From a virus: 64,000 bases of DNA. The stretch spans positions 1-64,000 of the IMG/VR virus record IMGVR_UViG_3300021197_001902. The stretch is one strand, 5' to 3'. Positions 14-53,249 of the stretch are shown here, one piece after another. A program made the translations under genes and the position numbers. Under the pieces are notes generated by a model. That model worked only from the letters and a program-made list of their open reading frames with translations. It ran no database searches and was not told the origin of the DNA. Position 1 is the first letter of the stretch, and each line of letters starts with the position of its first letter.

Positions 14-640
14 TTATGTTACAGGCTCTACTTTAACCTTTCCTGAATGTTCGCCTGATTTTAGCTCTTGATCCATAACTACTTGAGATGTAACATCCCC
101 GAGTAAGGCGGCTATTGTGGTGTCCGGATCAATGCCGGAGCGGACTTCATTTTCAATTCTTTCTTTCATCTTTTTGAAGACTTCTATTTCGGGAACAGAT
201 GGCTTTACAATATCTGCCCCTTGAGTTTGAAGGTGCCTCATAAACATTGTTAAATGATCTTCTAAATCGAAATACGAAGCAGCGGTGCCGGTCGGGTAGG
301 ATCCATCTTCAATGTTAGCGAAAGATGTAACAGCGGCTACTAAAAGAGCTTCCACTACTTTTTCGGAAATTTGTGAGCCGGCTGCAGCGCCGATTGCGCC
401 GCCGATTTTAGTGCCCGAACCGCCCGAGGCGCCTCCGGTGGCCACATCGATTGCTGCGCCGGCGCCCATGCCTAGCACTTTGGCTGTAATGCCTCCATAC
501 TTGGCAGCAAGCTTTTTTAACTTCCCGGGTTCTTTTTCGGCGAAGTAGCCATGTAACTCGCCTATGGTTCTAATGTTAGCTGGGTCTTCCTTAAGTAAAT
601 AAGCATCCCACCTCTCCATTATGAGTTTCATTTCACTCAT
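14..640 (-). CDS. Putative head-core/cargo protein with MKLIMExW N-terminal tag
   Basis: This is a 208-residue protein of unrecognised family. Residues 4-15 read MKLIMERWDAYL, a short N-terminal helical motif that I recall at the start of several unrelated marine phage proteins. A start at the second ATG (position 631) would put this motif exactly at the N-terminus and has GAGTG six bases upstream, so 631 is a credible alternative start. Residues about 55-90 are rich in Gly and Ala (AAIDVATGGASGGSGTKIGG type), compatible with a membrane-interacting or flexible segment; the C-terminal half is charged and probably helical. It lies downstream of the portal gene, where T4-like phages keep head-core and protease genes. 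A core or internal head role is inferred from position and tag only. Confidence 0.55.
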   Translation of the reverse strand: MSEMKLIMERWDAYLLKEDPANIRTIGELHGYFAEKEPGKLKKLAAKYGGITAKVLGMGAGAAIDVATGGASGGSGTKIGGAIGAAAGSQISEKVVEALLVAAVTSFANIEDGSYPTGTAASYFDLEDHLTMFMRHLQTQGADIVKPSVPEIEVFKKMKERIENEVRSGIDPDTTIAALLGDVTSQVVMDQELKSGEHSGKVKVEPVT

Positions 641-3926: not shown

Positions 3927-5510
3927 CTAGCCTTTTATTAACCCAAAATATTCTTGATTAAATTCTTTTGCTTCTTCGATTCTTTCGGTTTCCTTGGTCA
4001 TCCTATGACCCAGCATACCAGGGATGGTCGTAGAAATGCTTGTTTTCGCAGTACTAATAGCCGATACAAACGACTTACTATACTCTACGTTTCTTTGACT
4101 TTCTACAATCACTGTATCCCTCACCCAACAACCAATAGCAAATGACATAGTTAAATCATCGTTGTAACTTCTCATCGCCTGTGGTCGCCCATGATGCCAA
4201 ATAAATGTTTTCATCTCCGACAACAAACGATTGGAGTTAATCGTAATTAGTTTATTTCTCATAAACTCTTCCATTTTAGCTACGATCAGCGGCCTTGTTT
4301 TTGAAGAGGTAGTAAAACCTGGGATTACATTTGACTGCCATTGTGCTGTCATCGGGTCCACATACCGGTGGTCATTCTTGGTTGCATAGTATAGGTTAGG
4401 ATACCCTTTATCTATCAATTTTTTAAGTACTGCATAACCTATATTGTTGTTTTCTATTACTAACATAGGATTACCGTATTCAGCTGCTACATTGGAAAGA
4501 ATGTCCGCAAAGTCGTCAGGTGTTGGTTTGCCAACATATTCGGCCACTTGTTCTAATGTAGTAAGCTCCAATATATGAAACGCACTGTTGTCCTTACCAT
4601 CGCCACGAGCAACGTCGGCAACAATTAAATAATGGTTTTCTGGATTGTATTGTTTCCAAATCCAATAGTTTCTATCAAACCCAGTGCGATATTCTGGGGA
4701 GGTCGTCTTTTCTAAGTACCACTGAATATCTTCAGGATGTATGACAGTCTCACCCGAGACATTGAAGTTACACTCAAGCTCCTGTGCAATTTGTCGCCTG
4801 GACATGTTGCGCGTCTCTTTTTCAAACCATTTCTTGTCACGGTCTGGGTGTGCATCCCACATCAAAGTGGTCATATGAAAATCGTTGGTGCCGGCTTCGG
4901 CCTCAACACAGTTTTGATGAAACCAGTTTCCCACACCATTAGGGGTAGAGAGCGCGATACAGCGTCCACCAGTAGATAGAGTAGGATAGAGAGCAGTCCA
5001 GAGTTCATCTAAGCGTTCCACGTGAGCAGCCTCATCGATGATAAGGAGCGATAGAGCTTCCGAACGACCAGCGTCTCCAGAGGTTGAAGAGCCCTTAATC
5101 TGAGATCCGTTGCTTAATTCAAACGAGGTTCTATTGTCTACAGCAATATCTGAAATCTGCATCCACTTTGGCAGATTCTTAATGATTGCTTTTACTTTTT
5201 TGACAAGGTTAGTGGCTGTCTGTAGTTTAGTGGCCACCACAAGAATGTTCTTGTCTTTGTGGAATAACATTAACCACGCAACATAAGCTGCGCTGATAGT
5301 TGATATGCCCAGCTGCCGGGCTTTTAGAATGATATTGAAACGATAATCGCGGAAGTCTTTTAACAGATCCTGCTGATAGTCATACGCTTTGAAAGGGATC
5401 AGGCCTCTCTGCGGGTGTGAGATGCGACAATAGTTTGTTGTAAAGTAAACCGGATCTTTGCCGGCTTTAACAATCTCTTTTAATATCTCTTGCTTTGTAA
5501 GAGCTGCCAT
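3927..5510 (-). CDS. terL: Terminase large subunit (T4 gp17 type)
   Basis: This 527-residue ATPase-nuclease drives DNA into the prohead and cuts the concatemer. The ATPase domain has a Walker A-like KARQLGIST at residues 63-71, Walker B LLIIDEAA ending at residues 159-160 (DE), and a coupling motif ALSTPNG near 185. The nuclease domain carries the acidic residues expected of an RNase H-like fold: VADVARGDGKD near 300, VIENNN near 355 and YNDDLTMSFAIG near 455. Length and motifs match T4 gp17-like headful packaging enzymes. No small terminase subunit gene is recognisable in the window. It is followed directly by the portal gene. Confidence 0.95.
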   Translation of the reverse strand: MAALTKQEILKEIVKAGKDPVYFTTNYCRISHPQRGLIPFKAYDYQQDLLKDFRDYRFNIILKARQLGISTISAAYVAWLMLFHKDKNILVVATKLQTATNLVKKVKAIIKNLPKWMQISDIAVDNRTSFELSNGSQIKGSSTSGDAGRSEALSLLIIDEAAHVERLDELWTALYPTLSTGGRCIALSTPNGVGNWFHQNCVEAEAGTNDFHMTTLMWDAHPDRDKKWFEKETRNMSRRQIAQELECNFNVSGETVIHPEDIQWYLEKTTSPEYRTGFDRNYWIWKQYNPENHYLIVADVARGDGKDNSAFHILELTTLEQVAEYVGKPTPDDFADILSNVAAEYGNPMLVIENNNIGYAVLKKLIDKGYPNLYYATKNDHRYVDPMTAQWQSNVIPGFTTSSKTRPLIVAKMEEFMRNKLITINSNRLLSEMKTFIWHHGRPQAMRSYNDDLTMSFAIGCWVRDTVIVESQRNVEYSKSFVSAISTAKTSISTTIPGMLGHRMTKETERIEEAKEFNQEYFGLIKG

Positions 5511-8346: not shown

Positions 8347-11300
8347 TTACTGACTTACTCGCGCAAAACCGTCTTTCTTATCAATCGTAATCTCAACATC
8401 TACGATGTCTTTAAGCGAATCCACATGCGAAATAAGAATAACTGTCTTGAAGTACATCTTAATTAACTGCAAGATGCGGATAAAGCCTTCCATATTGTCA
8501 GCATCTAAGGCAGTTCCGGGTTCGTCAAGAATAAAGACATTTCCCTTGGGAAGCGACGACACTGATAGAAGTGCCAAACGGATTGCCATGGCTGCGACTG
8601 TCTTCTCGGCGCCTGAGCCCATCTCAATGGGTCGGGGCTCGTGCGATGGGTGTTTGAGAAGCACGTTAAGCTTACGGCCATCTTCTTGAAAGAATACATC
8701 AAAGTCGACAATATTGGCCAGCACCTTTGCTATCTCTCCATTAATAACCGGAAGACGCTTTTTGATGATGTCATATGCAATACCATTAGTGTGCGTACAA
8801 CGCATAAACAAATCATATGCTGCATACTCCTCTCGGATCTCGGCCATCTCTTCCATTTTTTGTTGCAGACTGGAGACCTTCTGTTCCATCGACCCGAGTG
8901 TCCTATGATGGAGGCTAATTGCTAGCTCGATATCGTTGATTTCAGCCTCTGTTGTCTTAATATCAGCTTCCACCCTGCCGCGGGATTCAATCAGATTTTC
9001 AATGTTTTTGATTAAATCTTTCTTTTCTTCATACAAATCAATCTTCTCATTCGTCTCATTAAGGCTATTACGATAATTCTTAATCTTAGCGTACAGTCTT
9101 TCTATGGAAACTTTGTTATCTCTTTTTTCGATCTCGATATTATTCTTCTGAATTATTGTATTATTATACCGGTCAATAACTTCTATCATCTCAGATGAGT
9201 TTACTGATACTGTACGTGTCTTGTAGTCTTTCGCTTCTTGGATCTTCTCAACTATCTCAACTTCAAGCGCTGGTAAGTTTGCTGAGGCCGTATGGGCATC
9301 TTTTATAAATTGACACTGAGTATACTGATCTCCACAAGGGACTTCATCAAGCAACTGGAGCTTTTTTGACATTCCCTTATAATCGTTGTCCATGAGACGA
9401 GCTTTGTGAATTGTGTCCTCGTACTTCTGTCTGTTGTCATCATACTCTTTCTTTTGGGCTAGAAGATCTTCAATATCTATGGTGGTCAAGAAATCATCAT
9501 AATCCTTAAGCTTCACCTCATACGCATCGTTTTCCTGCTTAAGCTCTGATATGTTAGCTACAGTGTCCGAGACCTTTCTCTCTACAGATACTCGCGTCTC
9601 TAAGAGATTCTTAATGTCTAGTCGTTCAGCGGGTATTGATTCGATCTGGTTCGTAAGATCCATGCTCTGGTTTACTAGGCTGGTAAGCTTTTGTCGAAGA
9701 TCGTCATGCGTTTTCTTATCCACCTCTAGGTTTTTTGACGCCTCTTCAACCTCTACTTCTGCAACTGCGATATCAATTTTATAACTTACGTCTCCCGACC
9801 GTCTAATGACGGCCTTCAGGTCACGACTATCCTCATGAGCCAGTCTAAACTTTTTCTCAAAGATATCTAAATCTAGGAACTTAGCTAGGATTTCTTTTCG
9901 GCGAGTTGACCCTTCCTTAATGAAAGCTAAACTATCCAGCTGACTGGACATTGAAGTGAGTAAGAAGTCCTCCACCGTACCAAAACGCTTACGAATATGT
10001 GCATCAGTTTCGTTACGAGTTGTGCCATTAAGGCTTGTCTCTTCCTCCATCACCGGATCCAATCCAGTGAAATTCAAGAACGTGCGGGCCTCGTTGGTAA
10101 CCTCACCCTTGAGTTTCTTTGTATACTTTTCTGACGTACGTTCGATGGTATAGGTCTTATCGCCGACTTGCAACTCAACACGGCCCATACAATCCTTTTT
10201 ATTTTGATTGATAATATTATAATTCTTACGTTCGTTCTTAGATGTAGTGTTGAACATCGTGTACAATATACCATCAATAATACTGGATTTACCTGAGTAG
10301 TTCTTGCCAAAGATACCGACGATTCCGTTTAGACTGTTGAAATCTACGCTGTTGCCCTCTCCATAATTGAAGAGATTGTCCCACTCAAACTTGTTAATAT
10401 TCCAGTTGACATTGCGAGCCACTTCTTCAGTTTCCTCGATCTTGGAGTTATACTTGCGATTAAGATTATATACGCGTTCTAACATTTCTTCGGTAGGTTC
10501 GTAGTCCTTCAGGTACTCGCGGATCAGATTTTCCTGCACTCCCTTATCACGGAGATTCTCCACCTTGAATCCAGAACCAATCTCGACAGTACCTCGTTCG
10601 CCAGCTGCTCGATTAAGGAAAGAGATACTCTCAGGCTTAAACCGATGCTTTGCTACCTCAACGGCTTTACGCATAACGTCAAGGGGTAGATTGTTGTTAC
10701 TTACTAGACGCAAGCGTGCGCCCGGCGGCATCTTAGTGCCCTTTGGCATCCGGCCCTTCGGCGTAAGTTCAATAGTCATGAACGGCTTGGGGTTCAGAAG
10801 AACATGGTGTTTAACTGTGAAACTATTCTTATCTTCGATGTCCCAAATCAAGAACCCCTTGTCGTTGGTCTCTCCGTGGTTCTGTTGGACCGTGGAGCCA
10901 CAATAGCGTACGCGGCCTTCTGTGTCCAGAATCTGGTTTGTCTTATGGATGTCTCCGAGCATTGCAAAGTCGTGACCAGCGAAGACACCAATGTTATGGT
11001 CGCCATGATCCATCACCCAACCAACGTCTGTAGACACGCCACCGATTGCGCCATGATACAGAGCAACATTAATGCGCGAGTTGTCACTAGGCGCAACCCA
11101 GTTGTCCTCGTCAAACACGGATAGCACGTTGAGCGCGAGATCGGGCTCTAGGACGGTTTCACCTGCGTTCTTGAGTAGATGTAGGTCTGGTAGGTCCAGA
11201 GCCTTCACAATGGGCGACAGCGCGTCCTGACGGGTACTGTTCTTTAGGTTGCCGTCGTGGTTGCCCAAGATGATGTAGGTTGGTGCGATTTTCGCTAGAT

Positions 11301-11499
11301 TTGCAAAGAAGTCGGAGCAAAGCTCAACGAACTCTGGTGAAATCTGTGTCTTGGTATGGGCGATGTCGCCGCAGTGGACAATGTAGTCCACTTTCTCTTT
11401 ACGAAGGATATCGTAAAGTTGTTCGAATACCTTCTTGTACTCGTAATGAAATTTTAAGTTTTTTATATGCGTGTCCGCAAGGTGTGCGATTCTATACAC
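8347..11499 (-). CDS. Single-chain Mre11-Rad50 (gp47-gp46 / SbcD-SbcC) fusion
   Basis: This 1050-residue protein joins two normally separate subunits of the double-strand-break processing nuclease. Residues 1 to about 230 are an Mre11/SbcD metallophosphoesterase: HLADTHIK, VHCGDIAHT, ILGNHDG, LYHGAIGG and FAGHDFAMLGDIHK supply the metal ligands. From about residue 380 comes a Rad50/SbcC ATPase: Walker A FGKNYSGKSS near 396-404, two long coiled-coil arms around a CGDQYTQC sequence near 721 (the place of the zinc hook), the signature GSGAEKT near 960 and Walker B FILDEPGTALD near 990. In T4 the homologues gp47 and gp46 act in recombination-dependent replication. The start is GTG, with GGGATAA upstream and a sigma70-like promoter before it. 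Confidence 0.9.
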   Translation of the reverse strand: MYRIAHLADTHIKNLKFHYEYKKVFEQLYDILRKEKVDYIVHCGDIAHTKTQISPEFVELCSDFFANLAKIAPTYIILGNHDGNLKNSTRQDALSPIVKALDLPDLHLLKNAGETVLEPDLALNVLSVFDEDNWVAPSDNSRINVALYHGAIGGVSTDVGWVMDHGDHNIGVFAGHDFAMLGDIHKTNQILDTEGRVRYCGSTVQQNHGETNDKGFLIWDIEDKNSFTVKHHVLLNPKPFMTIELTPKGRMPKGTKMPPGARLRLVSNNNLPLDVMRKAVEVAKHRFKPESISFLNRAAGERGTVEIGSGFKVENLRDKGVQENLIREYLKDYEPTEEMLERVYNLNRKYNSKIEETEEVARNVNWNINKFEWDNLFNYGEGNSVDFNSLNGIVGIFGKNYSGKSSIIDGILYTMFNTTSKNERKNYNIINQNKKDCMGRVELQVGDKTYTIERTSEKYTKKLKGEVTNEARTFLNFTGLDPVMEEETSLNGTTRNETDAHIRKRFGTVEDFLLTSMSSQLDSLAFIKEGSTRRKEILAKFLDLDIFEKKFRLAHEDSRDLKAVIRRSGDVSYKIDIAVAEVEVEEASKNLEVDKKTHDDLRQKLTSLVNQSMDLTNQIESIPAERLDIKNLLETRVSVERKVSDTVANISELKQENDAYEVKLKDYDDFLTTIDIEDLLAQKKEYDDNRQKYEDTIHKARLMDNDYKGMSKKLQLLDEVPCGDQYTQCQFIKDAHTASANLPALEVEIVEKIQEAKDYKTRTVSVNSSEMIEVIDRYNNTIIQKNNIEIEKRDNKVSIERLYAKIKNYRNSLNETNEKIDLYEEKKDLIKNIENLIESRGRVEADIKTTEAEINDIELAISLHHRTLGSMEQKVSSLQQKMEEMAEIREEYAAYDLFMRCTHTNGIAYDIIKKRLPVINGEIAKVLANIVDFDVFFQEDGRKLNVLLKHPSHEPRPIEMGSGAEKTVAAMAIRLALLSVSSLPKGNVFILDEPGTALDADNMEGFIRILQLIKMYFKTVILISHVDSLKDIVDVEITIDKKDGFARVSQ

Positions 11500-11579: not shown

Positions 11580-11897
11580 TCAATACCCGGGTTCGCCATA
11601 TATATCTCTAGGCTTAAACCCTAGTTTCTCGAAGGCATTCCATAAAGCCATAATTTCTGGATCCTCTAACGACTCGGGCTCCCAGTTGTCCAATGCAGCT
11701 ATGCGGTCCATAAGCGCCGACCTAGCTCCGGGCATGTCGGCTTTGGCAACCAACTCATATGCTTTCTCAATAACTTCACGGGTTTCGGGAGATAAGTCGG
11801 GCGATGTCTTGTGAATGCCGGAGTATGAAGCCTCTCCCATAATACTCGATATTTCTTCCTTGATGATCTGTCGTAGTTTTGCTTTTGAAATCTTCAT
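11580..11897 (-). CDS. Small tagged protein A (MKISK tag)
   Basis: This 105-residue acidic protein begins MKISKAKLRQIIKEE, which matches the N-terminal 15 residues of the next two genes although the rest of the proteins are unrelated. The remainder is a predicted helical domain (SPETREVIEKAYELVAKADMPGARSALMDRIAAL) that resembles helix repeats used for protein contacts, ending in FKPRDIYGEPGY. I12-K13-E14 fits the I/L-x-E recognition pattern known for T4 prohead protease gp21. Function is unknown; a tag for capsid entry or complex assembly is an inference from the shared N-terminus. Confidence 0.6.
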   Translation of the reverse strand: MKISKAKLRQIIKEEISSIMGEASYSGIHKTSPDLSPETREVIEKAYELVAKADMPGARSALMDRIAALDNWEPESLEDPEIMALWNAFEKLGFKPRDIYGEPGY

Positions 11898-11924
11898 GTT
11901 TTTGGTTATCCTATAATATTTTTA

Positions 11925-12320
11925 TTATTTAGAGAGCACTGGCTTCGGGTTATCAACGGGGCTACCGTCGTACACATTGACGCGGCCGGCAGTTTCAACT
12001 GCAGCCAATGCTTCTTCTGGAGTCTTAGCATCAGCTTTTGAAACCTTATCAACGCCCATATCACTGCCCACATACCAATGTCCGGTGCGGAGCGTCTCTC
12101 GGGATCCGATCTCTTGCTCTTCGCCAGGAAGAGGCGGTGTGATGCGCTTAGACTGATCTGCGGGGGGTGTACGCTTACGAGTGCGCACGGTCTTATCTAA
12201 AGGAACATTGATCTTCGTGGTTTTCCGGCCGCGAGGGGCTATCACTGTTCCTGTGCCGAACTCATAGTCTCCTATGACCTCTTGAATGATTTCTAACAAT
12301 CTGGTTTTGGAGATCTTCAT
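11925..12320 (-). CDS. Small tagged protein B (MKISK tag)
   Basis: This 131-residue protein begins MKISKTRLLEIIQEV, the same N-terminal tag as its neighbours. The rest is basic and Pro/Thr-rich up to about residue 70 (RGRKTTKINVPLDKTVRTRKRTPP), suggesting a disordered or DNA-binding middle, then a small C-terminal domain (WYVGSDMGVDKVSKADAKTPEEALAAV). The gene overlaps the previous one by a TAATG junction, so they are translationally coupled. I do not recognise a family. I12-Q13-E14 is a possible prohead-protease site. Confidence 0.6.
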   Translation of the reverse strand: MKISKTRLLEIIQEVIGDYEFGTGTVIAPRGRKTTKINVPLDKTVRTRKRTPPADQSKRITPPLPGEEQEIGSRETLRTGHWYVGSDMGVDKVSKADAKTPEEALAAVETAGRVNVYDGSPVDNPKPVLSK

Positions 12321-13123
12321 TATCGACTGCTGCCGTACGGACTTTTGCTGGGATCACCGCCGACTCGTCGGAGCTTGTCCACAACCTTATGGCGTTCCGT
12401 ACCATAATCATGTTCTCTATCTATTACTGCATGCGCATTGCCGTCACCGGGGTAGCTCCTCTTAAGAGCTTCCTTGTCCCAAGGGGCTGCTTCCTCCAGT
12501 CCGGATTCCTTATACATCTGGTTACCCAACAGGTCGTCCAGATAAGCTATGACTTCTTCGTCGTCGCCCAAACCGAGCTTCCTTGCTGCAGCGGCTCCGC
12601 CTTCTCCAACGCCAATGTTTGAAACGATCAAAAGTTTGTTTAGCAGGCGCTCCATCGGAGTGCCGCCTTCATGTCGTGGTTCGTCGGTTGCCATGGCTGC
12701 ATCGAAGTCAGCCTGCGAAAGTGCTGGCATCATCATATCTTCGCGTGAACCCTCTGCTGTGAGTTCTGCCTTAATAATCTCTTTTAGTCTTTGTTTGGTG
12801 ATTTTCATTTGGTTTGGGGATGTTCGTTTAACTAGTTTCTTTTGTCGCGCGAGATCGCTAGCTCGGCGTTTCAGTCCCTGGCGGCTTTTTACGACGCGCG
12901 CGCCGGCTGTACGATTGAAAGCGTTACTATAGGCCTTCTTATAGACGTCCGCGGCCGCGCCGTGGGGAGGAGTCGACGCTCTTCCGGCGGCGCCGTCTGC
13001 TTCGCCGGCGCGGTGCGCTTCTTCTTTATCTTCCTCATTCTGCCAGTCGGCATCAAAAGCTTCCTCAAATGTAGATAGCTCTTCCTTGATAATCTCTTTT
13101 AGTCTTTGTTTGGTGATTTTCAT
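12320..13123 (-). CDS. Double-tagged protein C (two MKITK tags in one frame)
   Basis: This 267-residue protein carries the tag MKITKQRLKEIIKEE at its start and again, nearly unchanged, at residues 106-120 (MKITKQRLKEIIKAE). The two parts differ otherwise. Residues 18-105 are Ala/Gly/Arg-rich, acidic then strongly basic; residues 122-267 are acidic with a helical domain (PMERLLNKLLIVSNI and EEVIAYLDDLLGNQ). The layout looks like two tagged genes fused in frame. Internal initiation at 12808 could yield the second part alone, but no clear ribosome binding site precedes that ATG, whereas AGGGA precedes the first. Family and function are not recognised. Confidence 0.6.
   Translation of the reverse strand: MKITKQRLKEIIKEELSTFEEAFDADWQNEEDKEEAHRAGEADGAAGRASTPPHGAAADVYKKAYSNAFNRTAGARVVKSRQGLKRRASDLARQKKLVKRTSPNQMKITKQRLKEIIKAELTAEGSREDMMMPALSQADFDAAMATDEPRHEGGTPMERLLNKLLIVSNIGVGEGGAAAARKLGLGDDEEVIAYLDDLLGNQMYKESGLEEAAPWDKEALKRSYPGDGNAHAVIDREHDYGTERHKVVDKLRRVGGDPSKSPYGSSR
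12774..12810 (-). repeat. Direct repeat copy 1 (37 bp, internal tag)
   Basis: These 37 bases are identical to 13089-13125 and encode the start of the internal tag at residue 106 of the double-tagged protein. Identity at the nucleotide level, with no similarity beyond, suggests recent copying of the tag sequence. Confidence 0.85.
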
Positions 13124-13135: not shown

Positions 13136-14071
13136 TTACAGTGACATCGCAAGTGTCAACAATAAATAGTTGTCTGGAGTGATAAGGGTCGCACTTTCCA
13201 GACATTTCTGAAATTGCTGCTTATCCATCGAGCCAACATCTTCACTGTCACCGATATTAACCTTCCAGACCTCAATGTCAAAATCGAGTAATGTCTTTAT
13301 AATCTCAAGCTCTTTCGTCTTTGCGTCGGGGTCCAGTGCGATGTAAACGCCGGCATCTTCTTTGACTATGTTCTGAAGCAGGACAGAATTCTGATTTAGT
13401 GTAGACCCAAGGAGCGGAACCGAGTTTCGGCCTGCAACAATTGCATCGAATACACCTTCAACCAAAACAATGTCGGAACTCCAATCTACAAATAAATTAT
13501 TGAATACAATATTGCGGCTAGTTGGTGGGTTTTTATACTTTGGATATGCTTTGCCATCATATGCTCGGGACACAAAATAGGTTAAATCACCGTCCTCATC
13601 GAATGAGGGGACAATGACTCGGCCCTCGTACTCTCCGGTGGCGCAGTAGCCCATTTTCCACCATACAATGTCTTTCTTGTCGATTCCTCGCTTACGCAAA
13701 TAATTGCGGGCTGCGAAGCCTGTGGGCGGTATATCTTTATTGGCCAGGGATACAAACCCCTCTGGCATTTCGACTACTTGCTTCTCTTCTACTTTTTCAG
13801 CGAATAGATCTTCGAACTTGTCGAAGTCCACAGTATCCGTAAATTCTCGCCACTGTGCTTTATCATGACTGCTACCAAAGCGCCGAATAACACGATAGAT
13901 ATTTTTACCACGCGTGTCACATACCCAGCACTTGTAGTAGCCTTTATCCACATTGACAGAAAACTTACGCTTATGATGGTTGCAATAAGGGCACCTAAAT
14001 AGAAACTCATTATTGGATTTATATGCTGGTCCAAGGACGTTAGCTAATATTTTGAGTTTTTTGGTTTTCAC
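13136..14071 (-). CDS. DNA primase (gp61/DnaG type)
   Basis: This 311-residue protein makes RNA primers for lagging-strand synthesis. It has an N-terminal zinc-binding domain with Cys at 27, 30, 48 and 51 (CPYC and CWVC), then a catalytic core with FVSRAYDGKAYPKYKNPP and a TOPRIM domain (IVLVEGVFDAI near 200 and ALDPDAK near 245). Size fits compact phage primases such as T4 gp61. The GTG start at 14071 is preceded by AGGGCTGACAC and overlaps the end of the resolvase gene. A replicative helicase is not in the window. Confidence 0.88.
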   Translation of the reverse strand: MKTKKLKILANVLGPAYKSNNEFLFRCPYCNHHKRKFSVNVDKGYYKCWVCDTRGKNIYRVIRRFGSSHDKAQWREFTDTVDFDKFEDLFAEKVEEKQVVEMPEGFVSLANKDIPPTGFAARNYLRKRGIDKKDIVWWKMGYCATGEYEGRVIVPSFDEDGDLTYFVSRAYDGKAYPKYKNPPTSRNIVFNNLFVDWSSDIVLVEGVFDAIVAGRNSVPLLGSTLNQNSVLLQNIVKEDAGVYIALDPDAKTKELEIIKTLLDFDIEVWKVNIGDSEDVGSMDKQQFQKCLESATLITPDNYLLLTLAMSL

Positions 14072-17887: not shown

Positions 17888-20629
17888 TTAGCTTGGATTT
17901 ATAACCCCTGAATTTTTAAAAGTTATATTTAGGTCCAACTTTTTGCCTGTCTTTTTGCTCGTAGCCCTAATCTTGAAAGTATTCTCCCAACAAGATTTCT
18001 CGTTTGTTGAGGCGCCCAGAAGGTTGTCCGGTGGTGGATTTTGCATATCTCCCGGGGCTGCAGGAGGTGATTCGAGGGCGACCTGATTAAAACTTGGCTC
18101 AACATAAATAAACCTTCGGCCGGTCATGCTATATGTCGGCTTTACTTTCTCAAAAGTAAATATCTGTTGTGTTAAGAATATTTGACCCTCATTGTTTATC
18201 ATTTCTATTTCAAAAATATATGTTGGGTTAGAAACATTATCATGAACATCCACTGATCTAGCACAGTAGTAATATTTATTGTTTGGCGCGATAGTATCTT
18301 GATAATATCCGGGGATACCCACATCCGGATCAATTTCGATGAATTCGTTACTAAAATCGCGATACGAGGTAGGCATGTTGCTAATTCTAAACAACTGATA
18401 CTTGTTTACTGGGTCATCTGACTTGAATGTTATCTTGAGGCCGTCCGAAGTAATTTCATCAAATGATTTGTTAAGTTCGGTTTGAGCAAAGTACTGCTCC
18501 TCAAAGTATGTTGAATCATCGTCTTGGATCTGTACGGGGCGATCTTCGTAGTCGCCCGTGTTAGCATTTAGCAAGATCTTAATATTTCTATCGTTGCCCT
18601 TTACGGGATAGAATGATATGTTTGGTGAGACAGGCGGCTTATCTTTCATTATGACTTCGAGGCCATGGCTACCCATTGCGTATGGCGCCAGGATAATCTT
18701 AATGGACATCTGGTTTGTTATCCCCTTGATCACTGTTGTTTGGCCTGGGAATATGAGGCTTCTCCTTGGGTATGTGTACTCGCTTCCGAACACAATAACC
18801 ATTTTCTTGATATCATATCGATATTTGGCACCATATTTAATCTGAGAATCATAGTATGTCGGGAGCGGTCCGGTAATGGGAGGCTTGTCAATTCTAGGAG
18901 AAATAAAGAATCTTTGGACCAACTCTTCGTTATCGCCGTCGATTCTATACTTCTCGACAACGTACATCAATGTCTCTGTATGACAAATCTTATTATTAAA
19001 TATTTCCTCTAGAGTTCGCTTAAAAGTGCTAACCAAAGGACCGGGGAGACCATTGGGGAAAATGGTGGTCATGGCGTGAACCATAGACACTGCAAGGTCG
19101 CCAGGATTAGCATTAAGAGTTTGTAAGTCTTTTCCGAAGTAATCTCGCAAGAATTTAACTGGTATTTGTGAGAGGATTCCGGATGGACCTGTTTTGTTTT
19201 GAGAAAACTTTACAAACTCTGTCACATTGGGCAACCCGTTCGTAAGAATATCTCCCAAATCCAAAAGAAGCGGCAATGTAATATCCGCGGAATCATATGT
19301 AAAGTCCGATAAGTCATTAACATCGTTAAGTCGCTTATACCTCGTAGCGAAATTCTGTGCCGGCAAGAAAGCTTGTATGTAGTAACTAAAGACGGCAGCT
19401 GCCTGCAGTATGTCGATGAAGTCTACTGTTGATGGATTAGTGGCCAGGGCGGCCAACAACGACGCTCCGGTTTGCGTTGAGTCGTCGTCGTCGCCAATTA
19501 CAATCTTGTTGTAGAATGGAATCTTGCTAAGATCGAGAGATTCTGGGTCTAGTACTGGGAGATCCGATCGAACAACGGCCAGGTCCCCGTTAAGTGTTTT
19601 GATCTGATCACTAGTTGTCTCATCCATGCTCTCAATAGCAGTTGTCCATCCATCGGAATATAGATTATAGTAAACTCCAATATTTGTTTCAGAGATACCG
19701 GTAACCGAAGTTTCAAACCAAGGCACCGGACCATCAGGGGTTAGCGCGCGAACAATCGCTGGGAATGTACTGTACGTTCCGCCAAATTGTACGGCAGGAA
19801 TATGATATGGGGCCAGTGGAGTAGAGGCAGTGTTTCTTAATTCTAACAGCAAGTAATAAGAGTTTGGAATCATGTGTTCTTTTACTCTAGGGTCGGCGAT
19901 GACATCCTCATAATCTGGATTCGAGTTAATGTAGAAGTTATAGGCTGGTTCAATTGTTGTTAAGACACCAGATCTTTCCCTAATTGTTTTGGATTTGGTT
20001 AGTAAGAAATGTCTAGATGTGTGGTCAAGGAAAGTTTTGTTCTCAAAGTTTAGCATATTGAGAACGCCCTCAAAGCTATACTGGTTTCCGTTGATTAAAT
20101 CGGTAACTGTTACCGGAGGGGTTGATAAATCAAAATCTCCTATATAATCAACTAAGTTATCTGTGAACCACTGTGCGCCATTGCCCTGTGCACTGTCCAC
20201 GGCCGGATATTGATCCCATGTAAGCGGAGCATAGTGCATCAACAGATCCGTATCGTTCGGTAAAAATTGAGGCTGAAAAACAATATTCGTACCGTTGTTG
20301 TTTCCCTCCAGTTGGTGTCTCAGTGCACCGATGCCGTTGGGGCCCTGATCTTGATCGTAAGCATTCACACTGCCGCCGACCCTTAGGGTATTCAAAGCAG
20401 ACGCATAGTTATATAGAGTTGGGCCGGCTGTACTCAGATATTGTGTATAATACGAACCTAGCAGTCCTCGCAAGGGGTCAGATGTCCCCCAATTGTCTCT
20501 AAACATTGGGTGGAAATTTACTGGGTTTCCGATAACGCTGGCGTTGTTCGTTACCACACCTCTGTTCTTAATTCCAACCAAGCTCTGGTCAACAATTAGT
20601 AATCTATCTTTATAGCTATCGTCTTGCAT
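17888..20629 (-). CDS. Large virion structural protein with C-terminal FnIII-like domain
   Basis: This 913-residue structural protein has no family I can name for the first 600 residues, which are rich in Asn, Asp, Tyr and Pro. The region about 720-850 reads like a fibronectin type III or Ig-like fold (LKITFKSDDPVNKYQLFRIS and NKYYYCARSVDVHDNVSNPTYIFE). Near residue 380 a run of Asp (DDDD) could bind metal ions. The gene sits between structural genes with 3 bases to the upstream stop. A tail fibre, collar or baseplate-peripheral role is likely but unproven. Confidence 0.6.
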   Translation of the reverse strand: MQDDSYKDRLLIVDQSLVGIKNRGVVTNNASVIGNPVNFHPMFRDNWGTSDPLRGLLGSYYTQYLSTAGPTLYNYASALNTLRVGGSVNAYDQDQGPNGIGALRHQLEGNNNGTNIVFQPQFLPNDTDLLMHYAPLTWDQYPAVDSAQGNGAQWFTDNLVDYIGDFDLSTPPVTVTDLINGNQYSFEGVLNMLNFENKTFLDHTSRHFLLTKSKTIRERSGVLTTIEPAYNFYINSNPDYEDVIADPRVKEHMIPNSYYLLLELRNTASTPLAPYHIPAVQFGGTYSTFPAIVRALTPDGPVPWFETSVTGISETNIGVYYNLYSDGWTTAIESMDETTSDQIKTLNGDLAVVRSDLPVLDPESLDLSKIPFYNKIVIGDDDDSTQTGASLLAALATNPSTVDFIDILQAAAVFSYYIQAFLPAQNFATRYKRLNDVNDLSDFTYDSADITLPLLLDLGDILTNGLPNVTEFVKFSQNKTGPSGILSQIPVKFLRDYFGKDLQTLNANPGDLAVSMVHAMTTIFPNGLPGPLVSTFKRTLEEIFNNKICHTETLMYVVEKYRIDGDNEELVQRFFISPRIDKPPITGPLPTYYDSQIKYGAKYRYDIKKMVIVFGSEYTYPRRSLIFPGQTTVIKGITNQMSIKIILAPYAMGSHGLEVIMKDKPPVSPNISFYPVKGNDRNIKILLNANTGDYEDRPVQIQDDDSTYFEEQYFAQTELNKSFDEITSDGLKITFKSDDPVNKYQLFRISNMPTSYRDFSNEFIEIDPDVGIPGYYQDTIAPNNKYYYCARSVDVHDNVSNPTYIFEIEMINNEGQIFLTQQIFTFEKVKPTYSMTGRRFIYVEPSFNQVALESPPAAPGDMQNPPPDNLLGASTNEKSCWENTFKIRATSKKTGKKLDLNITFKNSGVINPS

Positions 20630-47431: not shown

Positions 47432-48268
47432 TTATGTCTCCTTATTAATAAAGCAATCTTTAATCGCTTCTCTTGAATCTATTGTAGCAGACCAACCGAT
47501 ATTTTTTAATTTGGTCGTATCTGCTTTTGTTGTTTTTACGTCACCCATACGCTCAGGTACGTAAGAGAACTTAACCTGATTGTTCTCTTCTACAATTTGT
47601 TTTATATCATTCAAAGAAATAACGTCGCCCGAACCAACGTCGAACCACTCACCGTTAAAATCTTCATCATAGTTCATACAAAAGACGTTGGCCCTAACAA
47701 TGTCGTCTACATGGACAAAGTCTCTACTCTGTGTTCCGTCTCCGTCTAGTCGTAGCGGCAGACTTTTGTCAATCATCTCCATCCATGCACACACAACTGT
47801 CGAGTAGGACCCACCATATTCTTGGTCTTCGGAGAAAACGTTAAAGTAACGTAAGCAAACTGTGTCCAGTCCATATAATTGTGAATAAAGCTTGCACTCT
47901 TGCTCAGAGATTAGCTTGTGAAGGCCATATGGAGAGTTTGGACCCTCTCCGTCGCCAAGAACCGCGGAAGATGAGCTGAAGATTACTCTTCTTACTCCAT
48001 GGTTTTTGGCCCACTCTAGTAGGACCGATGTAACATAAGCATTATGCCTGAATGTATAACTTGGCTTCTCCACTGAGTAATTCACTCTTGGCAGCGCAGC
48101 CATGTGAAAAACATAATCATAATCGTCATCAGGCAGACAACTAACTATGTCTTCTCCTTCTTTAAGATCAATCCCTCGGATATATGTTTCCGACGAGCAG
48201 TTTTCCTTAAGGCTAGAAAACAGGTGTGAACCAATGTATCCTTTATGGCCCGTGATTAAGATCTTCAT
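47432..48268 (-). CDS. NAD-dependent sugar-nucleotide epimerase/dehydratase
   Basis: The start MKILITGHKGYIGSHL at 48268 gives a 278-residue extended short-chain dehydrogenase. GxxGYIG binds NAD, FSSSSAV gives the catalytic Ser region and YGLHK the Tyr-x3-Lys pair. It changes the configuration of a nucleotide sugar, but UDP-glucose 4-epimerase, GDP-fucose synthase-type or other epimerase activity cannot be separated by eye. It is next to the Gmd gene, so GDP-linked 6-deoxy sugars are plausible substrates. An upstream extension to 48295 would overlap Gmd and lacks support. Confidence 0.85.
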   Translation of the reverse strand: MKILITGHKGYIGSHLFSSLKENCSSETYIRGIDLKEGEDIVSCLPDDDYDYVFHMAALPRVNYSVEKPSYTFRHNAYVTSVLLEWAKNHGVRRVIFSSSSAVLGDGEGPNSPYGLHKLISEQECKLYSQLYGLDTVCLRYFNVFSEDQEYGGSYSTVVCAWMEMIDKSLPLRLDGDGTQSRDFVHVDDIVRANVFCMNYDEDFNGEWFDVGSGDVISLNDIKQIVEENNQVKFSYVPERMGDVKTTKADTTKLKNIGWSATIDSREAIKDCFINKET

Positions 48269-48269
48269 T

Positions 48270-49244
48270 TTAGAGTTCGTTTTGCCATCTATCAATCATG
48301 TCGTCCAGCAGTGTCGAAAAAGTAAACTCTGGTTTCCACCCTAGGACCTCTCTGGACTTGGTGGAGTCACCCTTGAGGTATTTGAGTTCCTCCGGTCGCA
48401 TATATTTGGGGTTCTGCTCGACATAATCACGATAGTCCATTCCCAACTTAGTGAAAACTGTTTCACACAAGTCTCTAACGGAGTGGGCCTCGCCGGTGGC
48501 AACAATAAATTCATCAGCTACATTGTGATTCGTAATCAAGTGCATAGCTCGAACATAATCTTGGGAGTGTCCCCAGTCACGGTAGGAATCCATATTACCA
48601 AGCTCTAACTTGTCTTGCAGCCCCTTTTTGATAGCTACAGCTCCCTTGACAACCTTGTTGGTGACGAAGTTCGAACCTCTACGCGGTGACTCGTGATTAA
48701 AAAGAATACCGTTGCATGCATGAAGGCCGTAGGCGTGCCTGTAGTGTCTTACAAGATTGTATCCCATAACTTTAGCACAGCCATAGGGACTGACGGGATT
48801 CATGGGCGTTGTGAGCCTCTGGAAGCCATCGTCATCGACGGAGTTGCCAAACATCTCAGAGGAACTAGCCTGATAGAATTTGGCATTCGGACAGATGGTT
48901 CGGTAGACCTCTAGGAGATGCAGCACGCCAAGAGCGTTTGTCTGAATGGTAAAGGAAGGCATATCGAAACTGACACGAACATGACTCATGGCACCAAGGT
49001 TATAAATCTCATCTGGCATTACCTGCGACACGATTCTAACGAGTGAAGGATAGTCCAGAAGGTCTCCATAATAAGCATGAACGTTTTCCCCCAGTCCATA
49101 TTTGTGGAGTCTGTGGTTCTGGTTTTCCGCGACCGAGTGGCGGCGGACAATGCCATGGACTTCATATCCCAACGACAGCAGGTGCTCCGTCAAATAGCTG
49201 CCGTCTTGGCCAGCGATTCCTGTAATCAGTGCTTTCTTCTTCAT
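48270..49244 (-). CDS. gmd: GDP-mannose 4,6-dehydratase
   Basis: This 324-residue enzyme converts GDP-mannose to GDP-4-keto-6-deoxymannose, precursor of fucose, rhamnose and perosamine. It has the cofactor motif ITGIAGQDGSYL, the family-typical EIYNLGAMSHVRVSF, QASSSEMFG with catalytic residues, and SPYGCAKVMGYN with Tyr-x3-Lys, then NHESPRRG. These are canonical for Gmd. A related activity on GDP-heptose is known in bacteria, which the SIS-HAD gene nearby makes worth keeping in mind. It overlaps the epimerase gene start closely. Confidence 0.95.
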   Translation of the reverse strand: MKKKALITGIAGQDGSYLTEHLLSLGYEVHGIVRRHSVAENQNHRLHKYGLGENVHAYYGDLLDYPSLVRIVSQVMPDEIYNLGAMSHVRVSFDMPSFTIQTNALGVLHLLEVYRTICPNAKFYQASSSEMFGNSVDDDGFQRLTTPMNPVSPYGCAKVMGYNLVRHYRHAYGLHACNGILFNHESPRRGSNFVTNKVVKGAVAIKKGLQDKLELGNMDSYRDWGHSQDYVRAMHLITNHNVADEFIVATGEAHSVRDLCETVFTKLGMDYRDYVEQNPKYMRPEELKYLKGDSTKSREVLGWKPEFTFSTLLDDMIDRWQNEL

Positions 49245-49840
49245 TTCTTAAAAATCTCCAATTTTGTAAGGTCAGGCCAATCTGTAACGACCCATTTGTG
49301 CGGCTTTGTCGCGATGGCTTCTGGAAGCTTCTCTAAACCAGTTGTAGCTACTTCTGGTGTCATATAGTAGTGAAGCCCAAAGGTATCAATGTTTTGCTCT
49401 CTCCACGGCACATCTGGTATTCTACCATCGTATGACATCTTTTTTAATTGTATCGCATCGTTTTCGTCATCTAAAAGAATGACTCCTCCCCGGCCTAGGC
49501 TCAAATGCTTTGCAAACTGAAAACTCACGCACATGAATGTCCCAGGAATATAACTATTCTCTGTCCAGAGCACAGCTGCATCATAGATTGGCTTTGGTTC
49601 ATCGTTTATCTTATAACAGTCTTGCCATGCTTCGTCTCTCCATTCGAGACCTATGTTTAATTTGTTAGCCAAGAACGGAACGGACAGGTATGTTCTTTTT
49701 GGAACATTTATTTTGTCGAGCTTCTGATATCGTATGCAAAGCTCTATGCCGTGTGTGCAGCTGTCCACCGCAACAGCGTATGGACAGCCAAAGAACTCGG
49801 CCAACTGATTTTCAAACTTTCTTACGGGCTCAAAACTCAT
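49241..49840 (-). CDS. Short DegT/DnrJ/EryC1-type sugar aminotransferase
   Basis: This 199-residue protein resembles the pyridoxal-phosphate sugar aminotransferases, but it is about half their usual length (350-400). It keeps AVAVDSCTHGIEL near the start, an Asp in IYDAAVLW in the place of the cofactor-binding Asp, and SFQFAKHLSLGRGGVI with the Lys that would form the internal aldimine. Most of the C-terminal small domain is missing. It could act on the 4-keto sugar made by Gmd (to give an amino sugar such as perosamine), or it could be an inactive binding protein. It overlaps Gmd by 4 bases. Confidence 0.7.
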   Translation of the reverse strand: MSFEPVRKFENQLAEFFGCPYAVAVDSCTHGIELCIRYQKLDKINVPKRTYLSVPFLANKLNIGLEWRDEAWQDCYKINDEPKPIYDAAVLWTENSYIPGTFMCVSFQFAKHLSLGRGGVILLDDENDAIQLKKMSYDGRIPDVPWREQNIDTFGLHYYMTPEVATTGLEKLPEAIATKPHKWVVTDWPDLTKLEIFKK

Positions 49841-50667
49841 TTATTTATCAATCCTTTTTCTTCAGCAAATTGCTTAATACCATAATCCCAGTATATCTGA
49901 TCTAGGGTCAGGTCTTTAGCTAAGTTGTAATTCTCTTCCACCACATCCAGCTTGCTATTGTAGTGCTCCTCAGAGACAACGTTATTCAGAATATCTTTCA
50001 GCTCGTCTATTGTCTGAAAGAACAAGGCACCTTCCGTGTTGTAAAAATCGTGGATGTTCGAATCTTCATTGCCCCAGTATATGGGGATGGACCCACAACA
50101 GAATGCATCATTGACCTTTTCACTAGCATAACCACCTTCTTCATTTTCAACCACGATATGGTATCGATAATCTGCTAGGCCTTCTGTTTTTGTTTCAATG
50201 GGATTATACGCTCTGCCATACAAATCCATCAGCTCCGAGCCCTGGAGGGCATTGACAATTTCATGTCGAAGTCGGTGACCTTGAGTATTGTTCTGCGCAG
50301 AAAAGATGGCGGATGTCATCTTAGACTTATCGTATATTTTTCTATCTTCCTTGGGGATCCAAATCTTTGGCCATATTGGATAGTATACAAACTTATCGGA
50401 TGGAGTGGATGCTAGTTGTTTGTTGTGGGTCATGATCAAATCGAAATATGAGTGATTCTGATATACCCACTCGTATACGGGCGCCATAACTGGGTGTGGC
50501 TCAATCAATAGCGCAATCTTATACTTACTATTGTGGCCCGGAGCATGTCCCGTGACCGTATCAACATACACTGCGATGTCTGTCTCACCTTGATCCTTTG
50601 TAAAAAGATCACCATAAACACTCGGGCCCAGTGAGGTTTGGGCCATAAAAACTTTTATATCATACAT
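49837..50667 (-). CDS. GT10-type glycosyltransferase (fucosyltransferase-like)
   Basis: Starting at ATG 50667 after AAGGAG with 7-base spacing, this 276-residue protein contains the alpha-1,3-fucosyltransferase motif of CAZy family GT10: YHIVVENEEGGYASEKVNDAF followed by CGSIPIYWGN, near residues 170-205, very like the Helicobacter enzymes. These enzymes use GDP-fucose, which would fit the Gmd gene nearby. The N-terminal part is the acceptor domain. Linkage and acceptor cannot be inferred. The start overlaps the cupin gene. Confidence 0.8.
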   Translation of the reverse strand: MYDIKVFMAQTSLGPSVYGDLFTKDQGETDIAVYVDTVTGHAPGHNSKYKIALLIEPHPVMAPVYEWVYQNHSYFDLIMTHNKQLASTPSDKFVYYPIWPKIWIPKEDRKIYDKSKMTSAIFSAQNNTQGHRLRHEIVNALQGSELMDLYGRAYNPIETKTEGLADYRYHIVVENEEGGYASEKVNDAFCCGSIPIYWGNEDSNIHDFYNTEGALFFQTIDELKDILNNVVSEEHYNSKLDVVEENYNLAKDLTLDQIYWDYGIKQFAEEKGLINK

Positions 50668-51073
50668 CAATAAACTCCTTGTCTAGCTCCTGGCCATAAT
50701 ATGGACCGGTCTTATACTCATACACCACTGTATCGTCTTCGAGACAAAGATAGTTGTGGCCACCCCTAAATGAGATGGTGCAATCACCCTGGTTTAGTAC
50801 CTCTTCAGTCAACAACGTCTGGTCAACGTCATACAGGAACACTTTTACAGAACCCTTGACGACAACCCAAGATTCTTGGGTTATGTTAGCAAGCTTCCGA
50901 CATTCAATGTGCTGGTGCGCTTTAAATGTTTTGCCCTCGTTTAAACGAAAGACTGACACTTGTAGAAATTCCTCTTCGGGGCTTAGGTCTGTTCTTTTTT
51001 CCGTAATCTCACCATAGCGGTTGATGGTGTGCATCAGGAGGCCTTCTTCTACTTTTGAAAAGATCTTTTTCAC
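50660..51073 (-). CDS. Cupin-fold protein in glycan block
   Basis: This 137-residue protein has a cupin beta-barrel pattern: KAHQHIECRKL supplies two His near residues 53-55, followed by QESWVVVKGSVKVFLYD, and a later GGHNY. Cupins in sugar clusters act as epimerases or isomerases of nucleotide sugars or as small binding proteins, but activity cannot be read here. It lies 3 bases from the sulfotransferase gene and overlaps the GT10-type gene, so it is part of the same operon. Confidence 0.7.
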   Translation of the reverse strand: MKKIFSKVEEGLLMHTINRYGEITEKRTDLSPEEEFLQVSVFRLNEGKTFKAHQHIECRKLANITQESWVVVKGSVKVFLYDVDQTLLTEEVLNQGDCTISFRGGHNYLCLEDDTVVYEYKTGPYYGQELDKEFIDV

Positions 51074-51075
51074 TT

Positions 51076-51768
51076 TTAATCCTCAAATTTGTAACTAAAG
51101 TATTCTACATCATTTTTGAACTTTTGTCCAACCATGTTTCTAAGTTCATCGTCATAAAAGCACTCATATGATGGCATGTTGTCGACATTAAACTCTTTCG
51201 GCGGCAAATCACTGACGTTTATCTTGTTTACTGTCTCAAGTGTCTTATTGGGATTGCGGAAATCTCTTGTCTGAATGCCAAGATGGTCACATACTAGATT
51301 CATTCCGGTAGCATAGTCCTCTAGTTTCACAATCTGATCAAACTTTATGGCACCCAGTTCACTGGTTTGGCTTTGCAGATGTTGTTCCAAGTACTGGTCA
51401 GGTGTGTCGCACACAAAGGTTACCAAATCCCTGAATGTAAAGTCTTCACTATTCATATCCTGGCGTCGGGTGTCTATTGGCCAGGTGGAGTTTTTCCACC
51501 AGACAGCAACTTTCTTGTTTTTGTAATAACTAACAATCCTCTTCCATGGATTTCTACAAACTATGAACTTATAGTAGTCTCTCCAGAATTCTTCCATTTG
51601 ATCGGGGGTAGGCTTCAGTTGTCTCTGCCCCAGAAAAACATGTGGATTTACGGTGGTTGGATCTATCCCTATTGTCTCTAGATACCACCTTTTTACTGCG
51701 GTGCATCCAGCCTTGGCGTTCCAACATACTATGAACTTTTGTTCGTGATTAATTAAAGGAAAAAGCAT
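51076..51768 (-). CDS. Sulfotransferase
   Basis: This 230-residue protein has the two cofactor motifs of PAPS-dependent sulfotransferases: WNAKAGCTAVKRW (residues 16-28, 5'-phosphosulfate loop) and CRNPWKRIVSYY (near 72-82, 3'-phosphate binding). It would transfer sulfate to a sugar hydroxyl. Its place among glycosyltransferases suggests sulfation of the phage-encoded glycan. PAPS would have to come from the host. Length is in the range of carbohydrate sulfotransferases. Confidence 0.85.
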   Translation of the reverse strand: MLFPLINHEQKFIVCWNAKAGCTAVKRWYLETIGIDPTTVNPHVFLGQRQLKPTPDQMEEFWRDYYKFIVCRNPWKRIVSYYKNKKVAVWWKNSTWPIDTRRQDMNSEDFTFRDLVTFVCDTPDQYLEQHLQSQTSELGAIKFDQIVKLEDYATGMNLVCDHLGIQTRDFRNPNKTLETVNKINVSDLPPKEFNVDNMPSYECFYDDELRNMVGQKFKNDVEYFSYKFED

Positions 51769-51784
51769 CTTGTCTATCTTCTCT

Positions 51785-52255
51785 CTATGCTGTTAGGGCT
51801 GCTGGCACTATGTTGATTCCTGATCTTAAGAGTGCAACCGAGCGATGTAGACCGTCGATTAGCTGACCTTGTTGGTTTATGATAATGTATTTATCTTGGT
51901 GCGGGGAATCTAGATAAGCAGCTGTAGTGTTTAGGATTTTATCGAACTTGTCGAACATGTATTGCATGTCCAAGTGTTCTTCGTTTATCGCTGCTCGGGC
52001 CCAAGTGATATGCTTACACTTTTCTAGATACTCCTCATATGGCTTTATATTTCCCATCGCGTACTGAAAGTGAGGAGTGTCTTTTATTAGGGTTGGCTTC
52101 AAAGAAAGAATTTTCAAATTCTGGCGATCAACTCGATCAACAATCCCATCGCGAATGTGGTTCAAATCAACTTTGACAATTCGATGCGCAACAGAATGGT
52201 AGCCTGGGGGCCACCAGCACTCACCACTCAAAGGATTGGTGGTAATACTTTTCAT
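51785..52255 (-). CDS. Hypothetical ParB-like domain protein
   Basis: This 156-residue protein has a C-terminal stretch, YIIINQQGQLIDGLHRSVALLRSGI near residues 123-147, that resembles the ParB/sulfiredoxin-like fold motif (a G-x-LIDG-x-HR pattern), which binds nucleotide. The N-terminal part is unrecognised. It overlaps the methyltransferase gene by 4 bases and is in the glycan block, so a metabolic rather than partition role is likely. Confidence 0.5.
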   Translation of the reverse strand: MKSITTNPLSGECWWPPGYHSVAHRIVKVDLNHIRDGIVDRVDRQNLKILSLKPTLIKDTPHFQYAMGNIKPYEEYLEKCKHITWARAAINEEHLDMQYMFDKFDKILNTTAAYLDSPHQDKYIIINQQGQLIDGLHRSVALLRSGINIVPAALTA

Positions 52256-52824
52256 TTTTTCTCACAGACCACATTCAGTGCTAAATGCAGCCCTGACTCA
52301 TCCATGTGTGGAATATAAGCTCTGGAGTAATCATCATAACCTTCTGGTAAGAACTCTCGCCAATCATATCTTTCAACATTTTCGAACCCATTGTCCACAA
52401 GTATTTTTTGGAGGGACGAAAAGTCATAGGCTGTTCTCTGGTAGATCACCTCGTTGAGGCCAACTTCATTGACAATCTCCCAGCGGCCGAACAATGGCCC
52501 TAGAAGGCCCTGAGCGTCGAGATCCTTACCGTTGGTTAAATAGTTCTCTACCATCATCTCAAAGTCCGCCAGAGACGTTCTCAGCAGCCCACCAGGCTTG
52601 AGAACTCGTCGCCATTCGGCCAGAACATCGACAACCTCATATCTATCAAAATAGATAATGACGCCACAGGAGTAGATCTCATCCACACTTTCATCTTCAA
52701 AGGCTGACAGATCCTTGATGTCCATCACCTGATCTACATGATCTAAGTGGTCTTGGTCAATATTAATAAACCCTGGGAGATATCTGTGACCACTTCCTAA
52801 ATGTAATCGGACTTTATCACTCAC
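52252..52824 (-). CDS. SAM-dependent methyltransferase
   Basis: This 190-residue class I methyltransferase has the SAM motif LHLGSGHRYLPGF at its start, INIDQDH as the acidic loop after strand 2, VDEIYSCGVIIYF and the typical WRRVLKPGGLLRTSL near residues 90-105. Substrate is unknown; neighbours suggest a sugar or a sugar-linked acyl group. It overlaps genes on both sides by a few bases. Confidence 0.85.
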   Translation of the reverse strand: MSDKVRLHLGSGHRYLPGFINIDQDHLDHVDQVMDIKDLSAFEDESVDEIYSCGVIIYFDRYEVVDVLAEWRRVLKPGGLLRTSLADFEMMVENYLTNGKDLDAQGLLGPLFGRWEIVNEVGLNEVIYQRTAYDFSSLQKILVDNGFENVERYDWREFLPEGYDDYSRAYIPHMDESGLHLALNVVCEKK

Positions 52825-53236
52825 CTTTTACAGCTCCAATAATGTTTCCGACAATTCTGATCGTATCACTCTCATAATCTGCGCCTCCTCGAAGGCCCTC
52901 GCTGAATACAATAAATTCGTTATCAACGGTGATGTTCAGTGCATGCACCTCGTACGGAGGCGTTGAAAGAATATCACCCTCATTCAGTACTATGCAGGTT
53001 GCATCATCAAGAGAGTCTAGATTGGCGTACCAATACTCCAGAGATCCCTTTGTAATCAACATGTGTTGAGTTGAAACCTCATGGTAGTGGTTTCCTCTAA
53101 CTGCACCAGCGTTAGACCTGATGATGGCAACGTGATCAATGCCACTTTTATAAAAGATGTCGGCAATAATTCCTCGATCATCTTCGTGTCTCTCCAGAGG
53201 AGCTTCGACATCTTCGTAAACGTTTTTCTTTTGCAT
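52817..53236 (-). CDS. Cupin protein (dTDP-sugar isomerase-like)
   Basis: This 139-residue cupin has DDRGIIADIF near its N-terminus and RGNHYHEVSTQHMLITKG near residues 47-64, with the two His typical of the sugar-nucleotide isomerase (WxcM/FdtA-like) and related cupins, then GDILSTPPYEVHAL. It probably acts on a nucleotide sugar intermediate for the methyltransferase gene just upstream. A simple binding role is the alternative. Confidence 0.7.
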   Translation of the reverse strand: MQKKNVYEDVEAPLERHEDDRGIIADIFYKSGIDHVAIIRSNAGAVRGNHYHEVSTQHMLITKGSLEYWYANLDSLDDATCIVLNEGDILSTPPYEVHALNITVDNEFIVFSEGLRGGADYESDTIRIVGNIIGAVKGE

Positions 53237-53249
53237 TTATAAATTCTCC

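Follow-up and report, generated by a model that had tools for sequence, protein, structure and literature searches.

What is the role of a near-identical start on adjacent phage proteins whose remainders are unrelated? The question is raised by three minus-strand genes at 11580–13123 of the stretch of DNA analysed (the window, bases 1–64,000 of a 90,732-base IMG/VR virus record that is itself a fragment), from a record whose terminase is 46–47% identical to the terminases of Flavobacterium phage immuto and Microcystis phage Mel-JY01. We consider it probable that this start, and a second one found in the same genome, are capsid-targeting propeptides specific to the lineage, which the prohead protease would remove. 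The most likely picture is one of marine T4 relatives in which two interchangeable 14-residue tags would load cargo into the head for injection into the next host.

Three tagged proteins, one of them a fusion

The start common to the three proteins, MKI[ST]KxxLxxIIxE, is here called tag A. The genes, their tags and their neighbours are listed below, slashes within or after sequences marking known or putative cut sites.

8347..11499, minus strand: SbcC/SbcD-like recombination protein (function read from sequence), one border of the island holding the tagged genes
11580..11897, minus strand: tagged protein 1, 105 aa, starting MKISKAKLRQIIKEE
11856-11897, minus strand: tag A of tagged protein 1, MKISKAKLRQIIKE/E
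11925..12320, minus strand: tagged protein 2, 131 aa, starting MKISKTRLLEIIQEV
12279-12320, minus strand: tag A of tagged protein 2, MKISKTRLLEIIQE/V
12320..13123, minus strand: tagged protein 3, 267 aa, two tagged genes fused into one, starting MKITKQRLKEIIKEE
12767..12808, minus strand: internal tag copy in tagged protein 3, MKITKQRLKEIIKA
13082-13123, minus strand: tag A of tagged protein 3, MKITKQRLKEIIKE/E
13136..14071, minus strand: DnaG-type primase (DNAG_N, Zn_ribbon_DnaG), other border of the island

A sequence-only reading had described three adjacent proteins with near-identical starts and otherwise unrelated bodies, one with a second copy of the start inside, and each of these points was borne out. 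All three reading frames and tags were recovered, with I-x-E at residues 12–14 of every N-terminal tag; protein 1 has in addition a possible second cut site, MGE/A, at residues 20–22. By phmmer, no body found a match in either of the others. None of the three proteins matched Pfam, and PHROGs returned only the uncharacterised phrog_3323, on the tag-containing start of protein 3, protein 1 matching neither collection. The sole homologue found for protein 2, in contig L042, looks untagged and is cut by the contig end, so is uninformative on tag loss. The internal copy in protein 3 (MKITKQRLKEIIKAE, from 12808) has lost E14, which breaks its triplet (IKA at its residues 12–14). Because this copy aligns with the start of separate genes of 82–102 aa in relatives, the 267-aa protein is taken to be a fusion of two tagged genes.

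Tagged genes were found elsewhere in the same genome. The tag profile detected a fourth A-tagged protein outside the window, at 76220–76549 of the record (tag copy at 76,490–76,549), whose tag (MKISKNALRQLIKKE) has no triplet at residue 14. A second recurrent N-terminus, tag B (MKLLLENWRKF-type; consensus MKLLxENWRxxLxE), begins the following genes, and the record as a whole shows a distant cluster of tagged genes at 76–81 kb.

14..640 of the window, minus strand: B-tagged gene, third downstream of the portal, tag MSEMKLIMERWDAYLLKE/D
77547-78665 of the record: B-tagged gene
78662-79117 of the record: B-tagged gene
79650-80684 of the record: B-tagged gene

On another part of the window's minus strand, 47432–62495, a long run of sugar epimerase, aminotransferase-like, methyltransferase and glycosyltransferase-like genes suggests surface-glycan modification.

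Two tags on hundreds of unrelated bodies

When 2.9 million viral contigs were scanned for the DNA pattern of either tag, each pattern gave at least 120 stretches, the counts derived from them being lower bounds. From the loci fetched, at least 313 A-tagged and at least 241 B-tagged non-redundant proteins were collected; once the tags had been removed, at least 535 bodies fell into at least 374 families among the proteins collected (309 singletons), and seven of the 374 families carried both tags. Alignments of 109 B-tagged and 110 A-tagged proteins, all taken from different families, showed conservation of essentially the tag alone. The tag A profile found copies in most long relatives, with seven in one 25.8-kb contig. 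The sequence-only reading had proposed asking whether the tag is carried by unrelated proteins of related phages or belongs to one conserved family: it is found on hundreds of unrelated bodies.

The A motif was counted in 5,772 called proteins (1.34 million residues): it started 293 times at residues 1–20, 17 times at residues 21–60 and 17 times beyond these, and occurred once in shuffled proteins; given 293 near-N-terminal occurrences against that single one, the tag is not due to chance. A search of 257 Gb of prokaryote genomes with the DNA pattern of tag A gave only six stretches; each came from a metagenome-assembled contig, and a prohead protease was present in two of the three assemblies of this kind that were checked. 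The tags are N-terminal and almost confined to phages. A tblastn search of annotated phages with a 23-residue tag, a query too short for the purpose, gave no match even at E = 10. Among the papers searched, all from the PubMed Central open subset, none was found to describe these tags or their swapping.

Most tagged bodies had no Pfam match. The matches among B-tagged bodies were scattered (Zeta-toxin-like kinases, DUF192, Peptidase_M23, NUDIX, GDSL, LigT, ART-PolyVal, HNH), and those among A-tagged bodies comprised pentapeptide repeats, GNAT and TseH-like proteins. A mixed-tag family modelled with AlphaFold (pLDDT 78) had no PDB match below E = 0.001; its top structural matches, mostly ADP-ribosyltransferases led by the anti-CRISPR protein 6kyf, are suggestive only. 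In contig L239 (13270–14400), a 377-aa protein combines a W-type tag and a domain of unknown kind with a C-terminal domain that is related to this ADP-ribosyltransferase-like cargo; it resembles a polyvalent protein.

Tag anatomy and the putative cut site

In the T4 capsid-targeting sequence (CTS), carried by IPI, IPII and IPIII, residues 4 and 7 carry targeting and residues 8 and 10 processing, and the prohead protease gp21 cuts at a consensus L/I-x-E (PMC9026906). IPII and IPIII start MKTYQEFIAE/A, and tags A and B have the same spacing: the layout hydrophobic-x-x-hydrophobic-[IL]-x-E reads Y4-F7-I8-E10 in T4, W8-F/Y11-L12-E14 in B and L8-I11-I12-E14 in A, with the targeting positions six and three residues before the final E. 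As in T4, short N-terminal peptides occur on unrelated proteins, at varied cargo loci, in phages with T4-type head genes. The T4 peptide differs in having 10 residues with aromatics, whereas B has 14 with W8 and F/Y11 and A has L8 and I11, aliphatic where the T4 tag is aromatic; furthermore, two tags occur together and replace each other here, across hundreds of body families known from sequence alone. Tag B resembles the T4 CTS by spacing only, the tags being too short to prove descent, and the tag A profile found no tag in T4, Mel-JY01 or DSL-LC01. Leaving aside descent from the T4 sequence, every CTS feature of T4 that sequence can test is present in the tags.

In a subset of 141 A tags not selected for residues 13–15, [ILV]xE ended at residue 14 in 126 (residue 12 was I in 90%, residue 14 E in 89%), as it did (W+6) in 193 of 241 B tags. 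Conservation of tag B collapses right after E14; that of tag A runs to residue 16 (E15, hydrophobic 16), the residue after E14 being nearly always E. Given this extended conservation, and a second [LIVM]xE that ends at residues 20–23 in about half of A tags (162/307, against 15–18 in windows further along), the cut in tag A may fall later, at 20–23. The capsid protein of these phages aligns at the T4 cut site FLTE65/A as LLRE/S, LLKE/A or IVSE/A ([LIV]xE/[AST]), so their protease probably keeps the L/I-x-E preference; the capsid site is followed by A, S or T, unlike E15 of tag A. The proteases themselves start with a related stretch ending L-[TSN]-E.

These details could also be accommodated by a virion-sorting signal that stays on the mature protein, binding core, shell or tail, with I-x-E incidental to an amphipathic helix; such a signal would account for the conservation of tag A past E14 and for E15, which is unusual after a cut site. 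It is at odds with tag B, in which conservation stops at E14 and the next residue is variable, with the retention of the triplet at the same residue in two chemically different tags and with the same triplet in the capsid protein of the same phages, and we regard it as unlikely. Our confidence in capsid-targeting propeptides is higher for tag B than for tag A.

Association with head assembly genes

Peptidase_S77 (the gp21 family; PF03420) was present in 26/40 long tag-bearing records and Gp23 (PF07068) in 25/40, those missing either gene being shorter and possibly partial (the window's own record ends before that region); both were present in every tag-bearing record of ≥139 kb (17/17). Of 25 neutral-pattern contigs (31–129 kb, on average shorter than the tag-bearing records) none passed the PF03420 cut-off and none had the tag, and at roughly similar sizes the protease was found in 0/11 neutral contigs (57–129 kb) against 6/17 tag-bearing records (64–110 kb).

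Tagged genes also lie within the head module. In relatives, B-tagged genes occur between portal and prohead protease, where T4 has its genes 67 and 68: 30 of 56 such intervals held a B-tagged gene and 11 an A-tagged one. A third shared N-terminus, MARRKN[VT]KRIDPRYFL[NHD]ETVNRNDDGS, was seen between portal and protease on proteins of 93–422 aa (L019, L021, L027, L035, L037, L047 twice, L048, L283, L289 and L316); FL-x-E is contained in it as well, and it is a possible third type of tag.

A putative cargo island and the exchange of tags

The island between the primase and the SbcCD-like gene holds from 0 to 7 tagged genes in relatives, A and B mixed, and in several of them it is empty, the flanking genes almost abutting. 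The position of the window's three genes between two such neighbours is what might be expected if the tag docked proteins onto a replication or recombination complex, an alternative that the sequence-only reading had entertained for a replication complex. Docking does not fit the empty islands, the tagged genes beside portal and protease or those of the 76–81 kb cluster, and it gives the conserved triplet and the co-occurrence with the protease no role; since tagged genes lie in the head module, we reject docking to replication proteins as very improbable.

At three loci, one of them beside the prohead protease, homologous bodies carry tag A in one case and tag B in another. Within the island, MKITKQRLKKIIKEEMDAMRGADRPGA (A, genome G001) and MKLILENFKKFINEEEDAMRGSDRLGA (B, genome G004) head homologous bodies (z = 19); an A protein of 74 aa matches a B protein of 76 aa over nearly the whole body (z = 39); and the gene directly after the protease is A-tagged in G001 and B-tagged in L349 (z = 17) and L236 (z = 9). 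The post-protease genes of L348 (z = 0.9) and L234 (z = 3) gave no convincing alignment with that of G001 and were left out of the swaps. Most relatives have after the protease a small protein (L096 41797–42246 and equivalents) starting MKKSELKKILKPLVxECIKESLLEDGLISGIIAEVVKG, which resembles tag A, yet here the whole protein is conserved.

Tag DNA is identical at 43–44 of 45 positions between different phages on unrelated bodies, which points to exchange by recombination at the tag, and the window's 267-aa protein is, on its sequence, a product of such recombination. That near-identity might also mark a stretch that is mainly a DNA-level recombination or expression module for gene swaps, its peptide having no targeting role. 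Codons at every conserved tag residue are synonymously diverse across the set, however, indicating that conservation acts on the protein; A and B differ in DNA and protein yet replace each other; and the peptide features match the mapped T4 determinants. A purely DNA-level role is accordingly hardly credible. The T4 late promoter TATAAATA was not enriched upstream of tagged genes (2/547 against 12/2892), a comparison that is uninformative.

Equivalent starts on packaged proteins of other phages

The virion proteome of the T4-like cyanophage S-CREM2, an independent data set, lists packaged non-structural proteins (PMC10665884). Among these a common start, MKxFxxFLxE, was recognised in a SAM hydrolase (MKDFDSFLEE), a kinase (KRFDAFLTE), a cytidylyltransferase (MKNFSSFLTE), gp13 (MKDLHSFLTE) and gp136 (MQTFSMFFSE). 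The motif occurred in 5/50 virion-detected against 1/183 undetected proteins (p = 0.002), a comparison that is supportive rather than a blind test, the motif having been settled after inspection of the proteins; the authors also allow for co-purification of abundant proteins (PMC10665884). The cytidylyltransferases of P-SSM2, S-SZBM1 and S-SM1 start in the same way. Among the virion proteins listed, gp156, gp160 and gp137 have domains in common with bodies that carry tag A or tag B, and a gp160-like motif is also present in the tagged protein at 79650–80684 of the window's record. S-CREM2 gp12 (L497 7704–10313), a Cas9-like nuclease detected in S-CREM2 virions, has RFASFMAE at residues 18–25, a T4-like tag set back from the annotated start.

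The cargo of these four phages is like that described here in comprising unrelated enzymes with a common N-terminal tag ending [LI]xE; it is unlike it in that the tag is almost T4's own and in that S-CREM2 proteins were detected in virions by mass spectrometry, where the present evidence is from genes. The sections of the S-CREM2 paper drawn upon do not discuss a targeting tag (PMC10665884).

Other systems are more distant. In phage P1, an N-terminal segment of DarB, of which 30 residues are sufficient, directs a reporter into the capsid (PMC9024508); this too is N-terminal capsid targeting, but of one large protein family rather than by a tag across hundreds of bodies. In SPN3US and phiKZ-type phages, packaged proteins lose N-terminal propeptides to the prohead protease (PMC10052503), although these are mostly long (111–254 residues) and on specific head proteins. 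Flavobacterium phage immuto (L092), the closest cultured isolate found, has recurrent starts, FDLKKFLVENKLTxNSxLLKE and SEQFRRMQKLAGIITE, on unrelated proteins (4772–5320, 18597–19598, 19598–19897 and 12641–13105), ending [LI]xE, as well as protein starts of MKKSQLR-type and FDLKKFLVENKL-type; the recurrent starts are likely to be tags of a Bacteroidota phage lineage.

A probable capsid address in marine T4 relatives

The capsid-targeting role that the sequence-only reading had proposed is strengthened by the hundreds of unrelated bodies, the regular triplet at residue 14, the protease and capsid gene in every long tag-bearing record, the swaps with the more T4-like tag B and the equivalent tag on packaged cyanophage cargo. 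Packaging and cleavage of tagged proteins in this lineage are predictions. The tag would form an amphipathic segment, hydrophobic at 8, 11 and 12, which would bind the internal core or scaffold and so draw the tagged protein into the prohead during assembly. A T4-type prohead protease would then cut after [ILV]-x-E (at E14, and in many A tags possibly also or instead near 20–23), and the freed cargo, if present in the virion and injected, would leave the head together with the DNA when a cell is infected. The window's three genes would represent one version of a variable cargo island in which tagged bodies are gained, lost and fused.

More tentatively, and with the odds somewhat against it, the T4 superfamily as a whole may have a capsid address code that is general but takes a different form in each lineage. 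It would consist of many short peptides at protein N-termini, alike only in how their hydrophobic residues are spaced and in ending with [IL]-x-E; two chemically distinct tags would operate within a single virion, perhaps through different core partners. Being small, diverse and for the most part without annotation, the proteins that phages inject along with their DNA are difficult to recognise; if such a code exists, sequence alone would list those of most large T4-like phages. Even as an address label of this lineage, the tag would make tagged genes in hundreds of uncultured marine phages readable as head cargo, including NUDIX, GDSL, LigT phosphoesterase, GNAT, kinase, pentapeptide and ADP-ribosyltransferase-like families. 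It would explain how cargo genes are swapped with delivery kept, and would extend the T4 capsid-targeting mechanism well beyond the T-even phages.
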